Source: an uncultured Bacteroides sp. (GTDB lineage: Bacteria > Bacteroidota > Bacteroidia > Bacteroidales > Bacteroidaceae). Taken from it: a stretch of DNA of 34,505 nucleotides. The notes below the pieces were generated by a model, which worked only from the letters and a program-made list of their open reading frames with translations, ran no database searches and was not told where the DNA came from. Location of the stretch: the NCBI GenBank assembly GCA_947173895.1, contig CAMWGU010000028.1:1-34505 (forward strand), written 5' to 3'. Positions 18,237 to 26,823 of this stretch are shown here, piece by piece (the first letter of the stretch is position 1; the number at the start of each line of letters is the position of its first letter). Position numbers and translations under genes: made by a program.

Positions 18237-20516
18237 ATAAATATCAAATTTTTTCTTTGTTGCTTGGTGTCTGTCTTTCGGATAAATGCGAAAGATAAGG
18301 AGCCGGTAGATTATGTGGATTGTTTTATCGGAACTTCTAACTCCCGATGGATGTTGGGACCCTATGCACAAGCTCCATTCGGTATGGTACAGATAGGCCC
18401 CGACAATCAAGGCAATCGCTGGATGGGTGGATATGAATATGCTATAAATAGTGTGTCGGCGTTTAGTCATATTCATGCCTGGACCATGGGCGGACTTTCG
18501 ATGATGCCTGCCACGGCCGATTTTACGATTGAAAATCCTGGGCCGGATTCTCCTTACAAAGGAGCGAATGCCGGATATCATTCTCGTATTTTGAAGGAAA
18601 CGGAGAAAGCGTATCCTGGATATTATGAGGTGGAATTGTATGACCATCAGGTAAAGGCAGCTATGACGGCTACCACCCGTTGTAGTTTTCAGAGATATAA
18701 TTTCCCCGCTTGTGAGGATGCTCGGGTGTTGATAGACCTTTTGTTTCCCACCGAATGGGATTATGGTTTTTCTGTGAAAGATGCTGAGATCAGAAGGGTG
18801 AGTGATACACAAGTGGAAGGTTATGCCCAATGTGTTTCGGGAGCTTGGAGTAGCTGGAATGATTGGACACTTTATTTCTCCATACGTTTTAGTAAGCCGT
18901 TCTTGTCATTTAATGGTTGGAACGATAAGGGGATACATGAGAATGTAAATGAAATAAAGGGAGCGGGAGAAACTGGTGCTTATGTAACTTATAAGACGTA
19001 TGATAACGAAGAAGTGTTGGTTCAGACCGGACTTTCGCTGGTAAGTTTGGAAGGTGCCCGTCTGAATTTGGAAAAGGAATTGAAAACACCGTTTGGATGG
19101 GACTTTATCACTTGCGTACAAAGCAATCGTCAGGTTTAGAACAATTTGTTGGGAAGAATAAAAGTGGGAGGTGGAACGGAACAGGATAAACGTAAGTTTT
19201 ATACCAATTTATATAGGGCCTATGCAGGTAAACAAACTTGGAACGATGTGGACGGTAAGTACAGGGATGCTTGCGAGCAGGTGCAACAGCTTAAGGTCGG
19301 GCAATCGGTATATGGCGGCGATGCTTTTTGGAATACTTATTGGAATCTGAATGGTTTATGGTCCATCGTTTCGCCGGAAGTTATAGACAACTGGGTTACC
19401 ACTCAATAGGAAATGTATAAACATACCGGATGAACCAGTAAAGGACCTGCCGGCATTGAATATTCGGGCATAATGGAAGGCTCTCACGAACTGGCTTTGA
19501 TGGTAGCTGCCTATCAGAAAGGAATACGCAAGGACGGGGAAGCCATTTATGAGGCGGCGCATAAGATGGTGACGCAGCAAGGGGGCCGGCACGAGTGTGG
19601 AGGATGGTATGGGCAGATTGATTTGGATGCATACGATAGGTTTGGCTATATGCCCAGTGAAATCAATGTGGTATCTAAGACATTGGATTATGCATACGAT
19701 GACTTTTGTGTGGCACAGCTGGCTAAGGCTCTTGGTAAGAAGAAAGATGCGGCTTTTCTGGAAAAACGTTCCATGAATTACAAGAATGTCTTTCATCCGG
19801 AGTATAAGTATGTATGTAACAAAGATTCGCTAGGCAGTTGGGACACAGATTTTGATGTCTTTTCCAACAAGGGATTTATCGAAGGAAATTCTTGGCAGTA
19901 TTCTTGGTATGTGCCTCATGATATGGATGGCCTGATTAAATTGATCGGTAAAGAAAAAGCGTTGGAACGTTTGTCTTCCGGATTTGAAAAAGCCAGGAAA
20001 CATCATTTTGCCGCCCATGTGTTCGATCGTACCATGGGACAGTCGGCCGAATTTTATATCAATCAGGGAAATGAAGTGAACATGAATGCCGCCTTTATCT
20101 TTAATTATTTGGGAAAACCGTCTTTGTGTCAGGATTATGTCCGGGCAATAGTGGATGAATATTATGGAAGTTCGCCTTATAAAGGGTGGGAAGGCGATGA
20201 AGACGAAGGACAGATGGGGGGATGGTTTGTGATGTCGGCCATGGGACTTTTTGAAATGGATGGGGGTGTTACGGCTGATTCGCAACTTGATCTGACCTCG
20301 CCGCTTTTCGAGAAGATTACCATTTCGCTTGATTCACGTTATTATAAAGGTAAGGAATTCGTTATTGAAGCGGTGAACAACTCATCGGACAACCGATATA
20401 TCAAGTCTGCCCGTCTCAACGGAAAACTGCTGAAAGGATTGCGGATTCCATTCAGTGCTATTGCCAATGGTGGTAAATTGGTATTGGAGATGACGGATGC
20501 TCCGGCATACGAATAG
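18237..20516 (+). pseudogene. GH92 alpha-mannosidase pseudogene (three in-frame stops)
   Basis: One continuous frame of about 760 codons, the usual GH92 length, encodes the family end to end: a signal-like N-terminus (IKFFLCCLVSVFRINA), the N-terminal domain starting VDYVDCFIGTSNSRW and PYAQAPFGMVQIGPDN, then GGDAFWNTYWNLNGLWS, GIEYSGIMEGSHE and the GWEGDEDEGQMGGWFVMSAMG motif. Intact members are Ca2+-dependent exo-alpha-mannosidases of N-glycans or mannan. Three codons are now stops with no frameshift: TAG 19137 (expected W in WNNLLGRIKV), TAG 19407 (expected L after VTTQ) and TGA 19431 (expected W in HTGWTSKGPAG). The codon where the signal peptide should start is ATA (18237), so the start also seems lost. 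A TTG at 18264 could start only a fragment. Confidence 0.9.
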
Positions 20517-20590
20517 TCTGTATAAGACATATCCGGGCAATACTGGTTACTTGAAAACATAATATATAAAAATAAAACTAATTGAATATC

Positions 20591-22889
20591 ATGAAAAAAC
20601 GATTAATGTTAGGCTTGCTTTTAGGAAGTCTCAGTGCATGGGGGACAGTCCGGCCGGATTTGCTGGATGTTCGGGTATGTGACCATTATAAGTACAGACA
20701 GGATAAGGAAGCCGGCCGTGAAATCTTTTTGTCTTATAGGGGGAGTAAAACAATGGATGGGGGCAAAGGTGGAAATACTTTCTAAAAAAGGAAATGAGAC
20801 CACTATCTTGCATACTAACCGACCGGACTCCATTCCAGTGTTGCTGTTGCCACAAATTGGCGTAGAGACAACCGATACCATTGTGGCCTGTCTACAGATA
20901 GGCGGAGAAAAAGTAACTCGCGAAGTGGTGGTGCCTGCCATGCGTCATTGGACGGTTTACATCTATCCCCATTCGCATGTGGATATAGGCTATACCAATA
21001 CGCAGGAAAACGTGGAATTCATTCATAAGCGTAATCTGGATGTGGCGATGGATTTGGCCGAAAGAACAGCCGATTATCCGGAGGATGCACGGTTTCGTTG
21101 GAATCCGGAAGTAACGTGGCCCATCGAACGCTATCTGAATAGCGAATCTCCCGAAAAGAAAAAAAGACTGGTTGAGGCCATACGGAAAGGGCATATCTCT
21201 GTCGATGCAGGTTATGTTAGCACTAACACCAGTGCAAGCAGTGACGAGGAACTGTTGCAGCTCTTCTCCTTTGGCAAGAAGATGGAGAAAGAGACCGGAA
21301 GAGCTGTGAAAACGATGGTTCAGGTGGATATTCCGTGAGTGTCGTGGGGTGTGGTCCCTGCCGCCAATCAGTTGGGCATTTTCTATTGCCTGTCTTTATT
21401 CAACGGATATGACCGGACGGGACTTTCTCCGGAGATGAGCTTTAAGCCTTTCTGGTGGATTGGGCCGGATGGTAAGTCGAAAGTATTGTTTTTGCAACCG
21501 GGAGCCTATACTCTGGGAACTTTGGCCAAAGGAAAATATTTCTGGCCCAAATTGGCAGGACAGCTGGATCGGGACAAATTGATTCCGGTGGTTCAGACAG
21601 ATTGTCCGCGAGAGAACTTCATTGATGCCTATCTGGCGGAAATGTTGCCCAAACTGGAAAAAGATAAAGACTATCCGTATGAGGTCTTTCCCATGACCTG
21701 GTGTATGGCCGATAATACACCTATTGATGTGGACTTGCCCGATGCAGTGAAAAGTTGGAATGAAGAATATGCCTATCCTCACGTACGGGATCTGTACGGC
21801 CACGGAAATGATGCAGGCGTTTGAAAAGTATGCCGACCGGCTACCTACTCTGCAAGGCGACTACACCGAATATTGGACCGACGGATTAGGTTCCAGCGCC
21901 GAGAAGACAGGGGAAAGCCGCGAAGTGAAAGACAAGCTGGTGCAGGCCGAAATTCTATGGAGCATGCTGAGCCCGGACCGAGAAGAACCTACAGCTCTGA
22001 TTGGAGAAGCCTGGCGTAATATTATTCTCAGTACGGAACATACCTGGGCTTATATGCAACCCGACCAACAGCCGATCAGTGACCAAATTCTGCAAACAAA
22101 GTTAGGATGTTTCGACAAGGCGAGAGAATTGACGGAGCAGGTGATGGACATGGCTTGCCAAACCATCGAAGATAAGAACTCGGATGTGCTTACGGTGTTC
22201 AATACCAATACGTGGGTGCAAAGCGGACTGGTTACTCTTTCGAAGGAAATAGCCGAAACCTATCAGTCATTGCAAGACGCGCAAGGGCAAGACATCGTGT
22301 GCCAGAAGCTATCTTTCGGCGAACTGGCCTTTTGGGCGGAAGATGTCCCGGCATTGGGCAGTAAGACATTCCGTCTGAAGAAGGAGGCACGACAGGGCAG
22401 GGTGCCCGAATCGGCAGCTATGGTCTTGGACAATGGCATAGTGAAAGTAGCGGTCGATCCGTCGACGGGAGATGTGACCAACTTAATATACAAAGGAGAA
22501 GAATTTGTCGATGCGGTTTCAAGTATCGTGTGCTTCCTCATATTGGTGCATACGATGTGGTTCGTTCTCACCGTTTTGCAATGGAGCAATATCGTCCGTT
22601 GATTGCGGTGCAGACCAAGAAAGCATTTAAATCCGCCAATCCGTTTTCTATAAAAGATAACGATAAAGTGGTGCTATCTAACTATCAGATACAGAATAAG
22701 GGAAAATCGCGTACCATCCGCCTGCTTTCTCTTTCGGAGCAAGATGAAAAGGTTTCCTTGCATTGGGAGAAGAAACAGCCTAAGGCCATTTATCGGAATG
22801 AAAACGGTAGGAAGGTGAAACTGTCGAACAAGAAACATCAAATTACAATCCCGGCTAAAGGCATCACCACGTTGCTGACAGAATGGTAA
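20591..22889 (+). pseudogene. GH38 alpha-mannosidase pseudogene (frameshifts, stop, internal deletion)
   Basis: A signal peptide (MKKRLMLGLLLGSLSAWG) begins the gene. The GH38 zinc motif PHSHVDIGYTNT, RWNPEVTWPIERYL, VQVDIP and SWGVVPAANQ are recognisable, as are CTATEMMQAFEKYADRLP and the C-terminal YRVLPHIGAYDVVRSHRF. Lesions: a five-G run at 20739-20743 with one G too many; TGA at 21336-21338 where Gly is expected, three codons after the Asp of VQVDIP (a likely nucleophile region); an extra G in GGG at 21787-21789; and a junction at about 22510-22518 where the start of the beta domain (GEEFVDAV) jumps to its end (FKYRVLPH), with several hundred residues missing. It lies 74 bp after GH92 and was probably co-transcribed to release alpha-mannose from the same glycan. 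Confidence 0.9.
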
Positions 22890-23079: not shown

Positions 23080-23161
23080 AAAACTCCGTCGGTGTTCTAA
23101 TGATTTCCGTCGGTATTCTTGTAAACACCGCCGGAGTTTACAAGAACACCGACGGAGTTTT
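23080..23161. repeat. Palindrome array 3: four CCGNCGG units, 21-bp period, nested inverted repeats
   Basis: CCGTCGG, CCGTCGG, CCGCCGG and CCGACGG occur exactly 21 bp apart. The outer arms, AAAACTCCGTCGGTGTTCT (23080-23098) and its exact complement at 23143-23161, form a perfect 19-bp inverted repeat, and an inner CTTGTAAAC/GTTTACAAG pair flanks unit 3. Units 1-2 are in one orientation and 3-4 in the other. It lies between the GH38 pseudogene (plus) and the convergent nrdG-side RNA (minus), starts with an A-run and ends with a T-run, so it could terminate transcription from both sides. The sequence differs from arrays 1 and 2 but the architecture is the same. Confidence 0.88.
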
Positions 23162-23434
23162 AGAAAATGAATAGGGCATGAACATCTTTATATAAGCCTC
23201 TCAAGAACTTTGCAAGCGGTTGAATCGCTATTAAAGATAGAAAATCCCTGGATACCAATATTTCAGAACTGTAACAAACACCATGCAGAACCCTAATGAA
23301 ACAATACTGGGCCACCATTTCGTTGGCAGGGAAAGGAATGCATTTGCTGAGTCATTTCGGACTGACCCGAAATATCCGTCGGCCCCTATCTTGTAGTGAA
23401 TGGAATGACAATTGTCTATTAAAGGTAAGGGCAT
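23162..23434. other. Intergenic stretch without a convincing gene
   Basis: No frame here has protein-like features. The interval separates array 3 from the 3' end of the small RNA candidate on the minus strand. Confidence 0.5.
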
Positions 23435-23755
23435 AAAAAAAGAGCGAAAGTTCTTTTGGCTGAACCCGCTCACCTCCTGAAGAACCCCCTCCATAAATGG
23501 GGTTCTTTTCGTCTCTCTCGTTTAAATTTTCAATTGCGTTATCCTTCTCTTCTCTTGTACCTAAAAACAACTCTTTTAATACCTGTGAAAACTAATTTCC
23601 TGAAAACTTTTTCTCTTCATTACCTTTACTTTTCTCTAATACCTTTTCTAATTAAATCTGTTTTTACCTAAATCTAATACCTTAATTATTCTAATCACTA
23701 TTATACCTATTCTTGTAATTTCCTTATAATAACTTCATCTCTAGTTTCACAACTA
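23435..23755 (-). ncRNA. Candidate small RNA, about 320 nt, unknown family
   Basis: The unit has its own promoter (minus-strand TACCTTTG at 23768-23761 with TTG 19 bp upstream) and a terminator (GAGCG..GTTC / GAAC..CGCTC between 23471 and 23442, then seven T). Between them the first about 200 nt are purine-rich and stop-dense in the frames I checked, and carry seven copies of AGGTA (plus-strand TACCT at 23558, 23580, 23621, 23640, 23665, 23678, 23704), often extended to AGGTATTA. Next come a hairpin (AAGAACCCC / GGGGTTCTT, 23507-23480), the unpaired AGGAGGTGA (23478-23470) and the terminator hairpin. It follows nrdG on the same strand. It does not show the conserved cores of tmRNA, SRP RNA or RNase P RNA; 6S RNA cannot be excluded. 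Confidence 0.55.
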
Positions 23756-23760
23756 CGCTG

Positions 23761-23768
23761 CAAAGGTA
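23761..23768 (-). promoter_or_regulatory. Promoter -7 box of the small RNA candidate
   Basis: Minus-strand TACCTTTG matches TAnnTTTG, and TTG (plus CAA at 23788-23790) lies 19 bp upstream as a -33 element. The predicted start is about 23755. Confidence 0.65.
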
Positions 23769-23865
23769 CGGCTTTTTAGCATATTGGCAAGTAAATAGAT
23801 GCTGAAAAACATAAAAAAGAGTAAATTCATGATATATATCAAGGAATACCGTTCTTTTTCATTTT

Positions 23866-24324
23866 CTATCGCACATGAATGATGCGTTGGTTGCTGCTTC
23901 CTCTGAATTCCAGATACGGGGAATATAAGTCGGCTTCAAAGCGTCCGTCCACTATGACATCTACATAGTTCAGTATCGGTCTCAACAGATCGTTGCTTTG
24001 TATTTGTTCGAATGTATATCCCGTATAGCACCAGATGTTCTGTTTGGTGCATTCTTTGATTCGTTTAGCCAGTTGTAGGAATTCCTGTGGATGATATAGC
24101 GGGTCTCCGCCCGAAAAGGTGACCCCGTCCAGCAGCGGATTGGCATTTATTTCGCCGATGATGCTTTCCACTTTCTCTGGTGTGAGCGGCGTGCCCGCCG
24201 ATGGGTTCCATGATTCCGGATTCTGGCAACCTCGGCAATGATGGCGGCATCCGGCCAAATAGATGGAATAGCGGATGCCTTCACCATCGACTATTGTTTC
24301 GGGATAGGTAAATAACAAGTTCAT
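23866..24324 (-). CDS. nrdG: Anaerobic ribonucleotide reductase activating protein
   Basis: The 152-residue radical-SAM protein has the NrdG cluster motif C26-RHH-C30-RG-C33 (CxxxCxxC) for a 4Fe-4S cluster and the [13 protein letters not shown] segment (about 68-80) that binds S-adenosylmethionine. It abstracts hydrogen from the glycine of NrdD to install the glycyl radical. The length is standard. It starts 5 bp after the nrdD stop, so the two form an operon, controlled by the riboswitch at 26644-26810. Confidence 0.96.
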
Positions 24325-24329
24325 GCTGA

Positions 24330-26618
24330 TTATCCATGTTTTACCCGATCACGTTCCTCTGCGCGTTTTGCCGAATTCCAAGTACTGAGATCGCCTGTCA
24401 GATAACCTGTTATGCGGCGCATGCGCATGATGCTTTCACTCCGGCATACCGGGCATTTGTCGTATATTACTCCTTTGTAGCCACATGCTTGGCAAGTATC
24501 TACAGGATGGTTGATAGAGCCGTATCCGATTCCTTCGTCATGCATCACCTTTACGATTTTGGCTATAGACTTTACGTTTTTCTGAGCTTCTCCGTCCAGT
24601 TCCACGTAGGTGATGTGTCCGCCGCGGGTAATGGCATGGAAAGGGGCTTCTCGCTTTATCTTTTCGGTAATGGTGATGGGGTCTTTCACATCCACATGGA
24701 ATGAATTTACATAATAATCGTTGTCTGTCACTCCGGGGATAACACCATATTTGCGGCGATCCATGCGGGTGAAACGTCCGGCCAGTCCTTCGGCTGGGGT
24801 GGCGAGTACGGAATAATTCAATTGATATTTCTGTTTGTATTCGTCCACTACTTTGTTCATTTCCGTAACGGCCTCGAACAATGTATTCCATGCTTTGGGA
24901 TTATGTCCGTGACCTTCTCCATACAGGGCCACCATGGCGTTGTGTCCGCCCAGAAAACCAATGCCCAGTGTGCCTTGGCGTAATACGTCTCCTACCTGTT
25001 CGTTGGGAGACAGTTTTCCTCCGCCTTTCCATACATTGTTGCCCATCATGAAGGGGAATTGGCGTGCTAGAGCCGTACGTTGGTATTGATAGCGTGTGTA
25101 CAGCTGTTCTGCAATGAGCTCGGCTGTTGTGTGTACGCTGTTTATGAAGATTTCCTTTGCTTTCTTCTCTATGGCCTCTTTTCCGTTCGCTTCTTCTTGT
25201 TTTTCTGCCTGAATGCGTGCTTCGATAGCCAGTCGTGGCATGTTCATGGTAGTGAATGACAGGTTGCCCCGGCCGAGCGAGGTTTTTTCACCTGCCACGT
25301 TCTCGAATACGCGGGTGCGGCATCCCATGGTTGCCAGTTCATAGCGATAGCGTTTGGGATCGTTGATGTCCCATTTCTCGTTCTTGTTGTAAGGAGTGTC
25401 CAGAAACATAAAGTTCGGAAACAGGGCCTTGGCCGTGGTTCGGCAGGCTTTCAGGAACAAGTCGAAGTTGGGTGCCTGAAACTTCATGTTGCCTTCCAGG
25501 GCCGCTTCAAAGTTTTCCATGGCTTTTTGGTAGTCTTCTTCTGAATAAGATACTCCGTCCTTTATTTTAAATATCTGTATCGGGAAAACAGGTACTTCGC
25601 CGCGGGTGCCCAATCCTTCGATGGTTGCTTTCAGCAGTTCTTCTATCACCATGCGTCCTTCGGGAGAAGTATCTGTTCCGTAATTGATGGAACTGAATAC
25701 CACCTGATTCCCTCCTCGCGAATGCATCGTGTTCAGGTTATGTATGAATCCCTCCATGGCCTGGTGGGTATCTTTGCGTGTCATAGCATTGGCTTTTTCT
25801 TCAATTTTCCGGAGGGCTTCTGCGTTCGGTTCTTTTCCTTCTATTTCTATATAGAAGTCGGTCAGGCTTTTCAAATGTTTACGGTAAGTTTTCCGTACTC
25901 CTTCCGCCATAAAGAAGTCGAAGGCGGGAATGGCCTGTCCGCCATGTTGCTCATTCTGGTTTGTCTGGAAAATGATAGTGGCCAGGGTGGCATAGCTTTG
26001 GATGGACTGAGGAGTGCGGATACTTCCGTTTTTGGTGCGGAAGCCGCGTTCGAACAGGTCATCCAGGTCATATTGGATGCAAGTGGTAGTCTTGGTGGGA
26101 TAATAGTCCAAGTCATGTATATGGATGTCACCCATTTGATGTGCTTCTGCATACTTTTTGGGTAGCAGGTATCGGTAGGTATAATCTTTGGTGACTTCCG
26201 AGGCGAATGTCATCATTTGTCCGGCTGGGGTGTGGCTGGACATATTGGCATTACTCAGATTGACATCGTTTTTGTCAATGGCCACAATGCCGTCCATGAT
26301 ATGCTTCATCTGCGTTTTACGGTCGCGTTCCGTGTTTCTCCATTCGCGGTAGATGATATATTTCTTGGCCACTTCGGGGTATGTTCTCATCAGCTCTTTT
26401 TCAACCAGATCTTGAATATCTTCCACACCGATGGTGGGGGAAGCGAAATGGTTGATAACCTGCATGGTGATGTCGGCAATTTGTTTATCCTTATTGTCGA
26501 TTCCGCAGGCATGGAATGCCTTGCCTATGGCGTTCTTGATTTTGCTGATGGAAAAGTCTTCCCGCTTTCCATCTCGCTTGATGATACAAATCTCGGCGTA
26601 ATTCATTGTTGAAAACAT
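24330..26618 (-). CDS. nrdD: Anaerobic ribonucleoside-triphosphate reductase (class III)
   Basis: The 762-residue enzyme reduces ribonucleoside triphosphates to deoxyribonucleotides without oxygen, using formate. It has an N-terminal ATP-cone (about 5-95, [26 protein letters not shown]), the NrdD barrel with [29 protein letters not shown] and [19 protein letters not shown], a zinc site ([17 protein letters not shown], near 716-732) and the glycyl radical loop [10 protein letters not shown] near the C-terminus. A second possible ATG lies 4 codons in (26606). A cobalamin riboswitch precedes it, implying repression when B12 is available, as expected in a cell that also has a B12-dependent class II enzyme elsewhere. 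Confidence 0.96.
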
Positions 26619-26643
26619 TAATTGTTAATTAAAATACTAAGTT

Positions 26644-26810
26644 GTCCTTTCAGGCAGGTTTTCTGACTTGTCTCTTCCCTGAAACGCCTTCCCGCAAATG
26701 TATTTTGTAGTGGCATACTGTTTCAGCTCAATGAGAGTTACAGCAGCGGGTACTGTTGCTGATTTTCACGGCATTCCCTTTTAAAAGTGATTAGCTTCAC
26801 CATGTAGGAC
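26644..26810 (-). promoter_or_regulatory. Cobalamin (B12) riboswitch upstream of nrdD-nrdG
   Basis: On the minus strand the leader carries B12-element features in order: GGGAATGCCGTG, then CAGTACCCGCTGCTGTAA, and near the 3' end GACAAGTCAGAAAACCTGCC, which matches the conserved closing segment GTCAGAA-ACCTGCC. The ends GTCCT (minus 26810-26806) and AGGAC (minus 26648-26644) can form stem P1. It begins right after a promoter box at 26816 and ends 26 bp before nrdD. Riboswitches of this class usually turn the gene off when adenosylcobalamin binds. Confidence 0.9.
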
Positions 26811-26815
26811 GCTTA

Positions 26816-26823
26816 CAAAGGTA
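26816..26823 (-). promoter_or_regulatory. Promoter -7 box for the riboswitch-nrdDG transcript
   Basis: Minus-strand TACCTTTG matches TAnnTTTG. The transcript would start around 26809, at the first base of P1 of the riboswitch. Confidence 0.65.

Follow-up and report, generated by a model that had tools for sequence, protein, structure and literature searches.

The window, which is the whole 34,505-nucleotide stretch of DNA analysed here from an uncultured Bacteroides sp., most likely encodes a non-coding RNA of about 320 nt that forms its own transcription unit on the minus strand, and this RNA is probably a base-pairing sponge (a multi-site target mimic) for a homologue of the small RNA BTnc060 rather than a protein sponge of the CsrB type. 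The complementarity of its sites far exceeds that of the controls, the sites are conserved in most comparisons, and titration of BTnc060 is the most likely role. A preliminary description of the same DNA had proposed a sponge-type regulatory RNA with repeated sites; that part is retained, but the repeats, which had been regarded as protein motifs, are better explained as complements of BTnc060. The unit directly follows nrdD and nrdG, and its features are as follows, all on the minus strand.

26636-26819, minus strand: cobalamin riboswitch RF00174 (Rfam, 92.4 bits)
24330-26618, minus strand: nrdD (open reading frame)
23866..24324, minus strand: nrdG, the upstream neighbor (open reading frame on the same strand; product name presumed from its translation)
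23829..23842, minus strand: putative CRP/FNR-like palindrome TTGATATATATCAT; its start lies 78 nt ahead of the TTTG in the -7 element
23788..23790, minus strand: putative -33 element TTG (from the sequence)
23761..23768, minus strand: -7 element TACCTTTG (from the sequence; kept in relatives)
23742..23755, minus strand: 5' hairpin UAGUU-GUGA-AACUA at the predicted RNA start (33-sequence alignment)
23537..23741, minus strand: purine-rich arm containing seven copies of AGGUA as well as eight exact BTnc060-complementary sites of at least 8 nt
23703..23711, minus strand: BTnc060-complementary site AAUAGGUAU (exact-complement scan)
23617..23683, minus strand: second-best predicted BTnc060 duplex region (AGGUAUUAG, AGGUAAAAA; -23.7 kcal/mol)
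23536..23610, minus strand: best collinear predicted BTnc060 duplex region (AAAGUUUUCA, AGGUAUUA, AGGUA, AGGAUAACG; -38.6 kcal/mol), a conserved block
23480..23507, minus strand: 3' hairpin 1, AAGAACCCC..GGGGUUCUU (alignment of relatives)
23435..23471, minus strand: terminator hairpin GAGCG..CGCUC and T-run, which ends near 23435 (alignment)

The TTG and TACCTTTG elements are consistent with a Bacteroides-type promoter of this RNA. They (23790-23788 and 23768-23761, respectively) agree with the -33/-7 promoter of the preliminary description, the -7 element is conserved in relatives, and the two hairpins and the T-run that it reported are likewise present on the minus strand. A consensus scan called neither a promoter nor a terminator on the minus strand at this unit; it seeks E. 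coli-type promoters and loops of 3-8, which are absent here. A covariance model of the 3' hairpins that was built from 33 sequences (R1) matched the window at 23435-23513. Among the 33 aligned rows, the second pair of the 5' hairpin was G-C in most, A-U in the window and in L035, and G-U in a few, and one pair was broken in L043 and L069, which contain AAUCA. One pair of 3' hairpin 1 was C-G in 33 rows and otherwise U-A (5 rows) or G-U (2 rows), and the outer pair of the terminator hairpin was A-U in 19 rows, G-U in 13, and G-C in 8. Two open frames (72 and 87 aa) share sequence with the 3' portion of the RNA, but the arm varies among relatives by insertions and deletions that ignore reading frames, in agreement with the earlier view that no protein-like frame is present. 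The earlier impression that the RNA belongs to no recognized family was also borne out: no family in Rfam 15, including 6S and Bacteroidales-1, was matched at the gathering threshold, and the three matches obtained were at chance level (E 4 to 8.4). The cobalamin riboswitch upstream of nrdD is also present in P. vulgatus (L015). Elsewhere in the window, open frames with a glycosidase-like appearance (18264-22889, plus strand) are split over several frames, which suggests frameshifts or assembly errors, and the words CCGACGG/CCGGCGG are repeated in direct and inverted orientation at 23080-23180, beyond the terminator.

The seven AGGTA copies of the arm were found on the minus strand (23708-23704, 23682-23678, 23669-23665, 23644-23640, 23625-23621, 23584-23580, and 23562-23558), with the spacings given earlier (26, 13, 25, 19, 41, and 22), and three of these are extended to AGGTATTA, which agrees with the statement that several copies are longer. 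Dinucleotide shuffles of the 203-nt arm contained on average 1.0 and at most 5 copies, and none of 2000 reached 7. The arm had also been described as purine-rich and apparently unstructured. Its purine content is 68%, which accords with the former; the latter holds only in part, as the predicted folding of the complete RNA is close to that of its shuffles (z -1.2; 10/100 as good), and the accessibility of the sites (0.50) does not exceed that of the remaining arm (0.51).

The proposed partner was encountered by a pattern search for AGGTATTAG followed by AGGTA, which matched the opposite strand of a short unit in several genera. This unit consists of a promoter, then CGUUAUCCUGAAAACAAUCUUUUUACCUUAA..ACUAAUACCUAUUG or a close form, and then a terminator hairpin. 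The window genome contained one strong copy (L079, G000:C6:67035-67145), which lies downstream of a gene that we take to be phoU-like from its translation, and which matched Rfam family RF04184 (BTnc060) over the full model length with 129.9 bits and E 4e-23. L079 thus appears to be a BTnc060 homologue that scores below the curated cut-off of 228.9 bits, a value that was reached by none of the eight BTnc060 loci scanned (129.9-191.8 bits, the upper value being from a second genus, g3). The RF04184 model extends about 120 nt upstream of the 5' end predicted here; the annotated BTnc060 may therefore be longer. The first 56 nt of BTnc060 are predicted to be unpaired. BTnc060-related DNA was detected in at least 185 of 251 Bacteroidaceae genomes and in at least 23 of 30 genera when at most three candidates per genome were scored. 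L050 and L056, which the pattern search also retrieved, are short sites that precede a start codon or lie in an intergenic position; they were left out of the count, and L049, L058, and L067 lie outside the set. Units of AGGTATTAG/AGGTA behind promoter-like sequence, which resemble BTnc060 complements, were observed in two other genera (L057, 1500-1630; L062, 1500-1600). With regard to a viral origin of BTnc060, viral contigs yielded nothing in a scan with one exact 28-base pattern, which diverged copies could escape.

When compared with the initial 60 nt of BTnc060, the RNA of the window contains eight exact complementary sites of at least 8 nt that cover 79 of 330 nt. This coverage was attained by none of 500 dinucleotide shuffles of the RNA (mean of 17 nt) and by none of 500 shuffles of BTnc060. 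In natural sequence, none of 236,386 windows of 60 nt reached 79 nt, the best being 42; this control comprised 120,113 bases of the window genome (fetched loci and the window, with a few stretches doubled), from which the RNA and BTnc060 loci were excluded. All 17 Phocaeicola pairs, in each of which both RNAs came from one genome, showed 46-146 nt of complement in 4-13 sites, with 0/500 sponge shuffles reaching the observed value in each pair, and the BTnc060 shuffles reached it in 4/500 for the pair from G192 and in none for the other pairs. Reversed and same-sense controls of the Phocaeicola pairs gave 0-26 nt. Of the 36 loci entered, three (G154, G005, and G041b) were left out as their 5' anchor could not be located; the array was present in G154 upon later inspection, and G005 was treated apart. 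The best predicted duplex (-38.6 kcal/mol) runs collinearly along BTnc060, and none of 200 shuffles was as low (mean of -23.4). On the other hand, the energy summed over all predicted sites was ordinary, with 9/100 shuffles as low, and the region 23617..23683 taken alone (-23.7 kcal/mol) was not better than shuffled sequence. Among the words conserved in Phocaeicola are GUUUUCAGGA and AGGAUAAC, both distinct from AGGTA; jointly, the conserved words spell the reverse complement of BTnc060. Base-pairing complementarity between the arm and BTnc060 is therefore well supported at the level of sequence. The clustering of the repeats in intergenic DNA would also fit an array of sites for a DNA-binding protein that is transcribed only incidentally. 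However, in the aligned loci the array is situated between a conserved promoter and conserved hairpins, and its reverse complement corresponds to the 5' part of BTnc060, which is itself followed by a terminator; such a DNA-level explanation is highly improbable.

Arrays behind the NrdG-like gene recur among relatives, with six to eight AGGTA in P. vulgatus ATCC 8482, P. sartorii, P. faecalis, P. massiliensis, and Bacteroidaceae IMSAGC_004, and two in the MAG of L016, and the array was missing in two of the eight named loci examined (the MAGs of L018 and L020). A DNA search of the genus matched 52 of 61 genomes at E 0.01, many of these matches covering the promoter only. R1 matched 44 of 399 genomes of the family, including 32 of the 33 Phocaeicola genomes sampled. 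Most of the matched genomes had supplied the model; in the seven that had not, all nine loci carry the array. R1 also matched seven genomes of g3, which would be a Bacteroides-like genus as judged from its content and higher BTnc060 scores, and gave weak matches in five further genera (G027, G040, G058, G069, and G355). In the g3 unit, AAGAACCC/GGGTTCTT of hairpin 1 is replaced by AAGAATCCC/GGGATTCTT, which is a paired change. A model that combines both forms of hairpin 1 (R2) matched, at E 0.001, 70 of the 149 genomes of g3, including 20 with values below 1e-8, and Rfam gave no match for seven g3 loci at E 0.1. Two copies of the RNA with different arms were present in the Phocaeicola genomes G126, G041, G153, and G152 (L170/L171, L176/L172, L246/L247, and L248/L249). 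A plasmid-collection record labelled Phocaeicola massiliensis (OY725986.1, 62522-62878) contained the RNA at 72% identity; this record may be a chromosomal contig.

The complementarity extended to g3 and to a third genus. Five of the seven g3 loci were excised, L244 and L245 having been set aside as their 3' hairpin does not fit the pattern applied, and all five exceeded 300 shuffles, with 60-101 nt of complement to their own BTnc060 (two loci) or to that of G227 (three loci). R2 listed 72 places, of which 30 were made into loci and 28 were examined, in every case against the BTnc060 of a single g3 genome (G227). In 27 of these 28 loci, 37-106 nt of complement lay within the 300 nt that precede the hairpins, compared with just 18 nt in L275, and the controls remained at or below 18 nt (same sense) and 27 nt (downstream). 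Nine of the 28 loci had another stem, AAGAAAAGCC, and form a second g3 subtype, in which AGGTATTAG is absent from eight loci and single in one, while the word AGGTA-purine-ATTG, which is complementary to another part of BTnc060, occurs in six of the nine. The exact word AGGTAAAAAGATTG was found in 2/9 loci of this subtype and a looser form in 6/9. The second subtype fits the sponge reading but supports it weakly. In the third genus (G005), the RNA consists of 5.3 tandem copies of a 47-nt unit that is a near-complement of BTnc060. This unit is collinear with the reverse complement of both BTnc060 copies of the same genome (predicted -33.2 and -30.9 kcal/mol per unit), and the complement covers 172 and 167 of 451 nt. 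The 47-nt array (L177, 396-645; L012) lies about 1 kb from an NrdG-like frame, beside a response-regulator-like gene.

Circular-shift tests were used for site-by-site conservation. Among seven close relatives, the BTnc060-complementary positions of the arm were 92% identical vs. 56% elsewhere (0/202 shifts), and AGGTA positions were 75% identical vs. 69% elsewhere (41/202 shifts). In a second alignment of the window group, the complement, AGGTA, and words shared in the same sense with the small RNA FopS were equaled by 0/199, 1/199, and 24/199 shifts, respectively; the corresponding values were 6/195, 23/195, and 44/195 with G156 as the reference, 3/200, 22/200, and 7/200 in five other Phocaeicola, 0/153, 45/153, and 6/153 in ten g3 loci of type 1, and 16/216, 0/216, and 45/216 in four g3 loci of type 2. 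The complement therefore scored best in the window group, among the other Phocaeicola, and in type 1 of g3, with FopS-like words close in two of these comparisons, and AGGTA ranked first in g3 type 2. The preliminary description had proposed conservation of the AGGTA sites as a check, and the outcome was mixed: the arrays recur in relatives and the motif stood out in one alignment (1/199), but it did not in another (41/202). BTnc060 itself hardly varies, which leaves no room to demonstrate compensatory changes in the two RNAs.

These values also bear on two readings in which BTnc060 is not the ligand that is titrated. According to the first, the repeats are binding sites for an RRM protein, e.g., RbpB, which the RNA would titrate in the way that CsrB titrates CsrA. 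One RRM protein is indeed encoded in the window genome, as the preliminary description had anticipated for Bacteroides, and AGGTA is the best-conserved class in g3 subtype 2 (0/216 shifts). The arm also shares GUAUUAGAUUU-like words in the same sense with FopS, including seven common 8-mers, and the available text of PMC11697453 reports that RbpB binds FopS in its 5' portion. However, the conserved words vary from site to site and jointly form the reverse complement of BTnc060, and the FopS-like positions were less clear (24/199 vs. 0/199 in the window group; 45/216 in subtype 2), albeit near-equal in two comparisons. Titration of a protein as the main role is thus unlikely. The second reading regards the arm as a multi-seed RNA that pairs with mRNAs, such as susC-type starts, in the manner of FopS, with BTnc060 antagonizing both RNAs; in the same available text, FopS represses a susC mRNA (PMC11697453). 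It is consistent with the same-sense similarity of the arm to FopS, with a predicted FopS:BTnc060 duplex of -24.2 kcal/mol (2/200 shuffles), and with nine matches of the FopS family in the window genome, seven of which were over the cut-off. On the other hand, the arm carries complements of the 5' half of BTnc060 (GUUUUCA and AGGAUAAC) that are missing from the FopS stretch, and the candidate mRNA leaders are alike in sense to the arm, so that BTnc060 rather than the arm would be their pairing partner, which renders a multi-seed function quite unlikely. Given one RRM protein in the genome and a FopS same-sense stretch in the arm, protein binding, e.g., by RbpB, is possible in addition to the sponge function for BTnc060.

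The sequence upstream of the promoter and the candidate mRNA partners are relevant to how a BTnc060 sponge would operate. The box TGAY-N4-RTCA started 76-78 nt ahead of the TTTG in the -7 element at 32 of the 32 Phocaeicola loci with sequence there (22 of 33 loci by one pattern and ten by the sister form ATGAY..RTCAAG, the remaining locus being cut by the contig end), and this palindrome was present at an equal distance in all 18 anchored g3 loci (20 tried). We take this palindrome to resemble CRP/FNR boxes. Similar boxes precede the candidate target leaders of L051, L053, and L054. Leaders with sites in the sense of the arm, which are complementary to BTnc060, were found before PII/glnK-like, small secreted protein, SusC-like, and ClpB-like genes, product names that we presume from their translations. 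Because the E-values of these leaders were 3.5e-5 to 0.04 in whole-genome searches, they are leads only. L189 and L195 contained near-exact complements in PII/glnK-like leaders near position 1500, with intact 118-aa frames 28 and 25 nt downstream, respectively, and P. vulgatus (L188) contained a degenerate copy of this leader with neither a start codon nor an open frame of 60 aa. The leader of the small secreted protein was identified in g3 (L187 and L193), and further leaders precede genes that look SusC-like (L194) and ClpB-like (L201). The leader of the 117-aa secreted protein (L053, L054, L187, and L193) contained up to four AGGTA, with a CRP/FNR-like box in L053 and L054, and the protein had no Pfam match over the cut-off. 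In the window genome, two leaders complementary to BTnc060 (L087 and L090, G000:C12) lie about 2.5 kb apart before carbohydrate-active-looking genes.

In the proposed mechanism, the open 5' region of BTnc060 (about 55 nt) could pair with mRNA leaders such as these. The window RNA, which repeats target-like words many times without a gene and is probably made under a regulator of the CRP/FNR family, would capture BTnc060 and thereby free its mRNAs. This direction of titration is suggested by the many sites in one RNA relative to one strong copy of BTnc060, and by the presence of BTnc060 in more genera.

Sponges of bacterial small RNAs are already known, including SroC, RbsZ, and the chb leader for ChiX. 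As is proposed for the window RNA, these pair with a trans-acting small RNA and lower its activity, but they carry one or a few sites, whereas the 17 Phocaeicola RNAs each contain 4-13 exact sites in a stand-alone gene, and the third genus has a tandem array of near full-length mimics. CsrB and CsrC are protein-titrating RNAs with many repeats of a short word. The window RNA resembles them in its many short repeats and differs in that its words are complements of a small RNA, not one protein motif; according to the preliminary description, Bacteroidales lack CsrA. FopS (RF04319) likewise occurs in Bacteroidaceae and has GUAUUAGAUUUAAGG-like words within an open stretch in its 5' part, but its model has 71 positions with one such stretch, and the window RNA did not match the RF04319 covariance model. 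BTnc060 (RF04184) is the proposed partner, reverse-complementary to the arm; the window RNA has the opposite sense and is not a member of that family. A non-exhaustive literature search, from which subscription journals were mostly missing, retrieved neither the name BTnc060 nor a small RNA sponge in Bacteroides. The available text of the 2020 B. thetaiotaomicron transcriptome paper mentions such sponges solely as a general class (PMC7366714), and that of PMC13370916 deals with another RNA. An array of 4-13 sites in a dedicated gene, found in Phocaeicola and a second large genus and without an Rfam 15 match in the loci searched, thus appears to be a new variant of the sponge.

A broader and tentative proposal, which we consider possible though doubtful, is that of a hub common to two or more gut genera, in which a dedicated, environmentally switched multi-site sponge would sequester BTnc060 and also draw RbpB through the FopS word, so that two small RNA circuits are reset. 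Bacteroidaceae are dominant gut bacteria in which RNA regulation is little known, and a dedicated sponge would place the widespread small RNA BTnc060 in context. If the hub exists, its circuits would act on mRNAs for glycan use and nitrogen (PII/glnK), and the multivalent arrays would represent a distinct class of bacterial RNA sponge.
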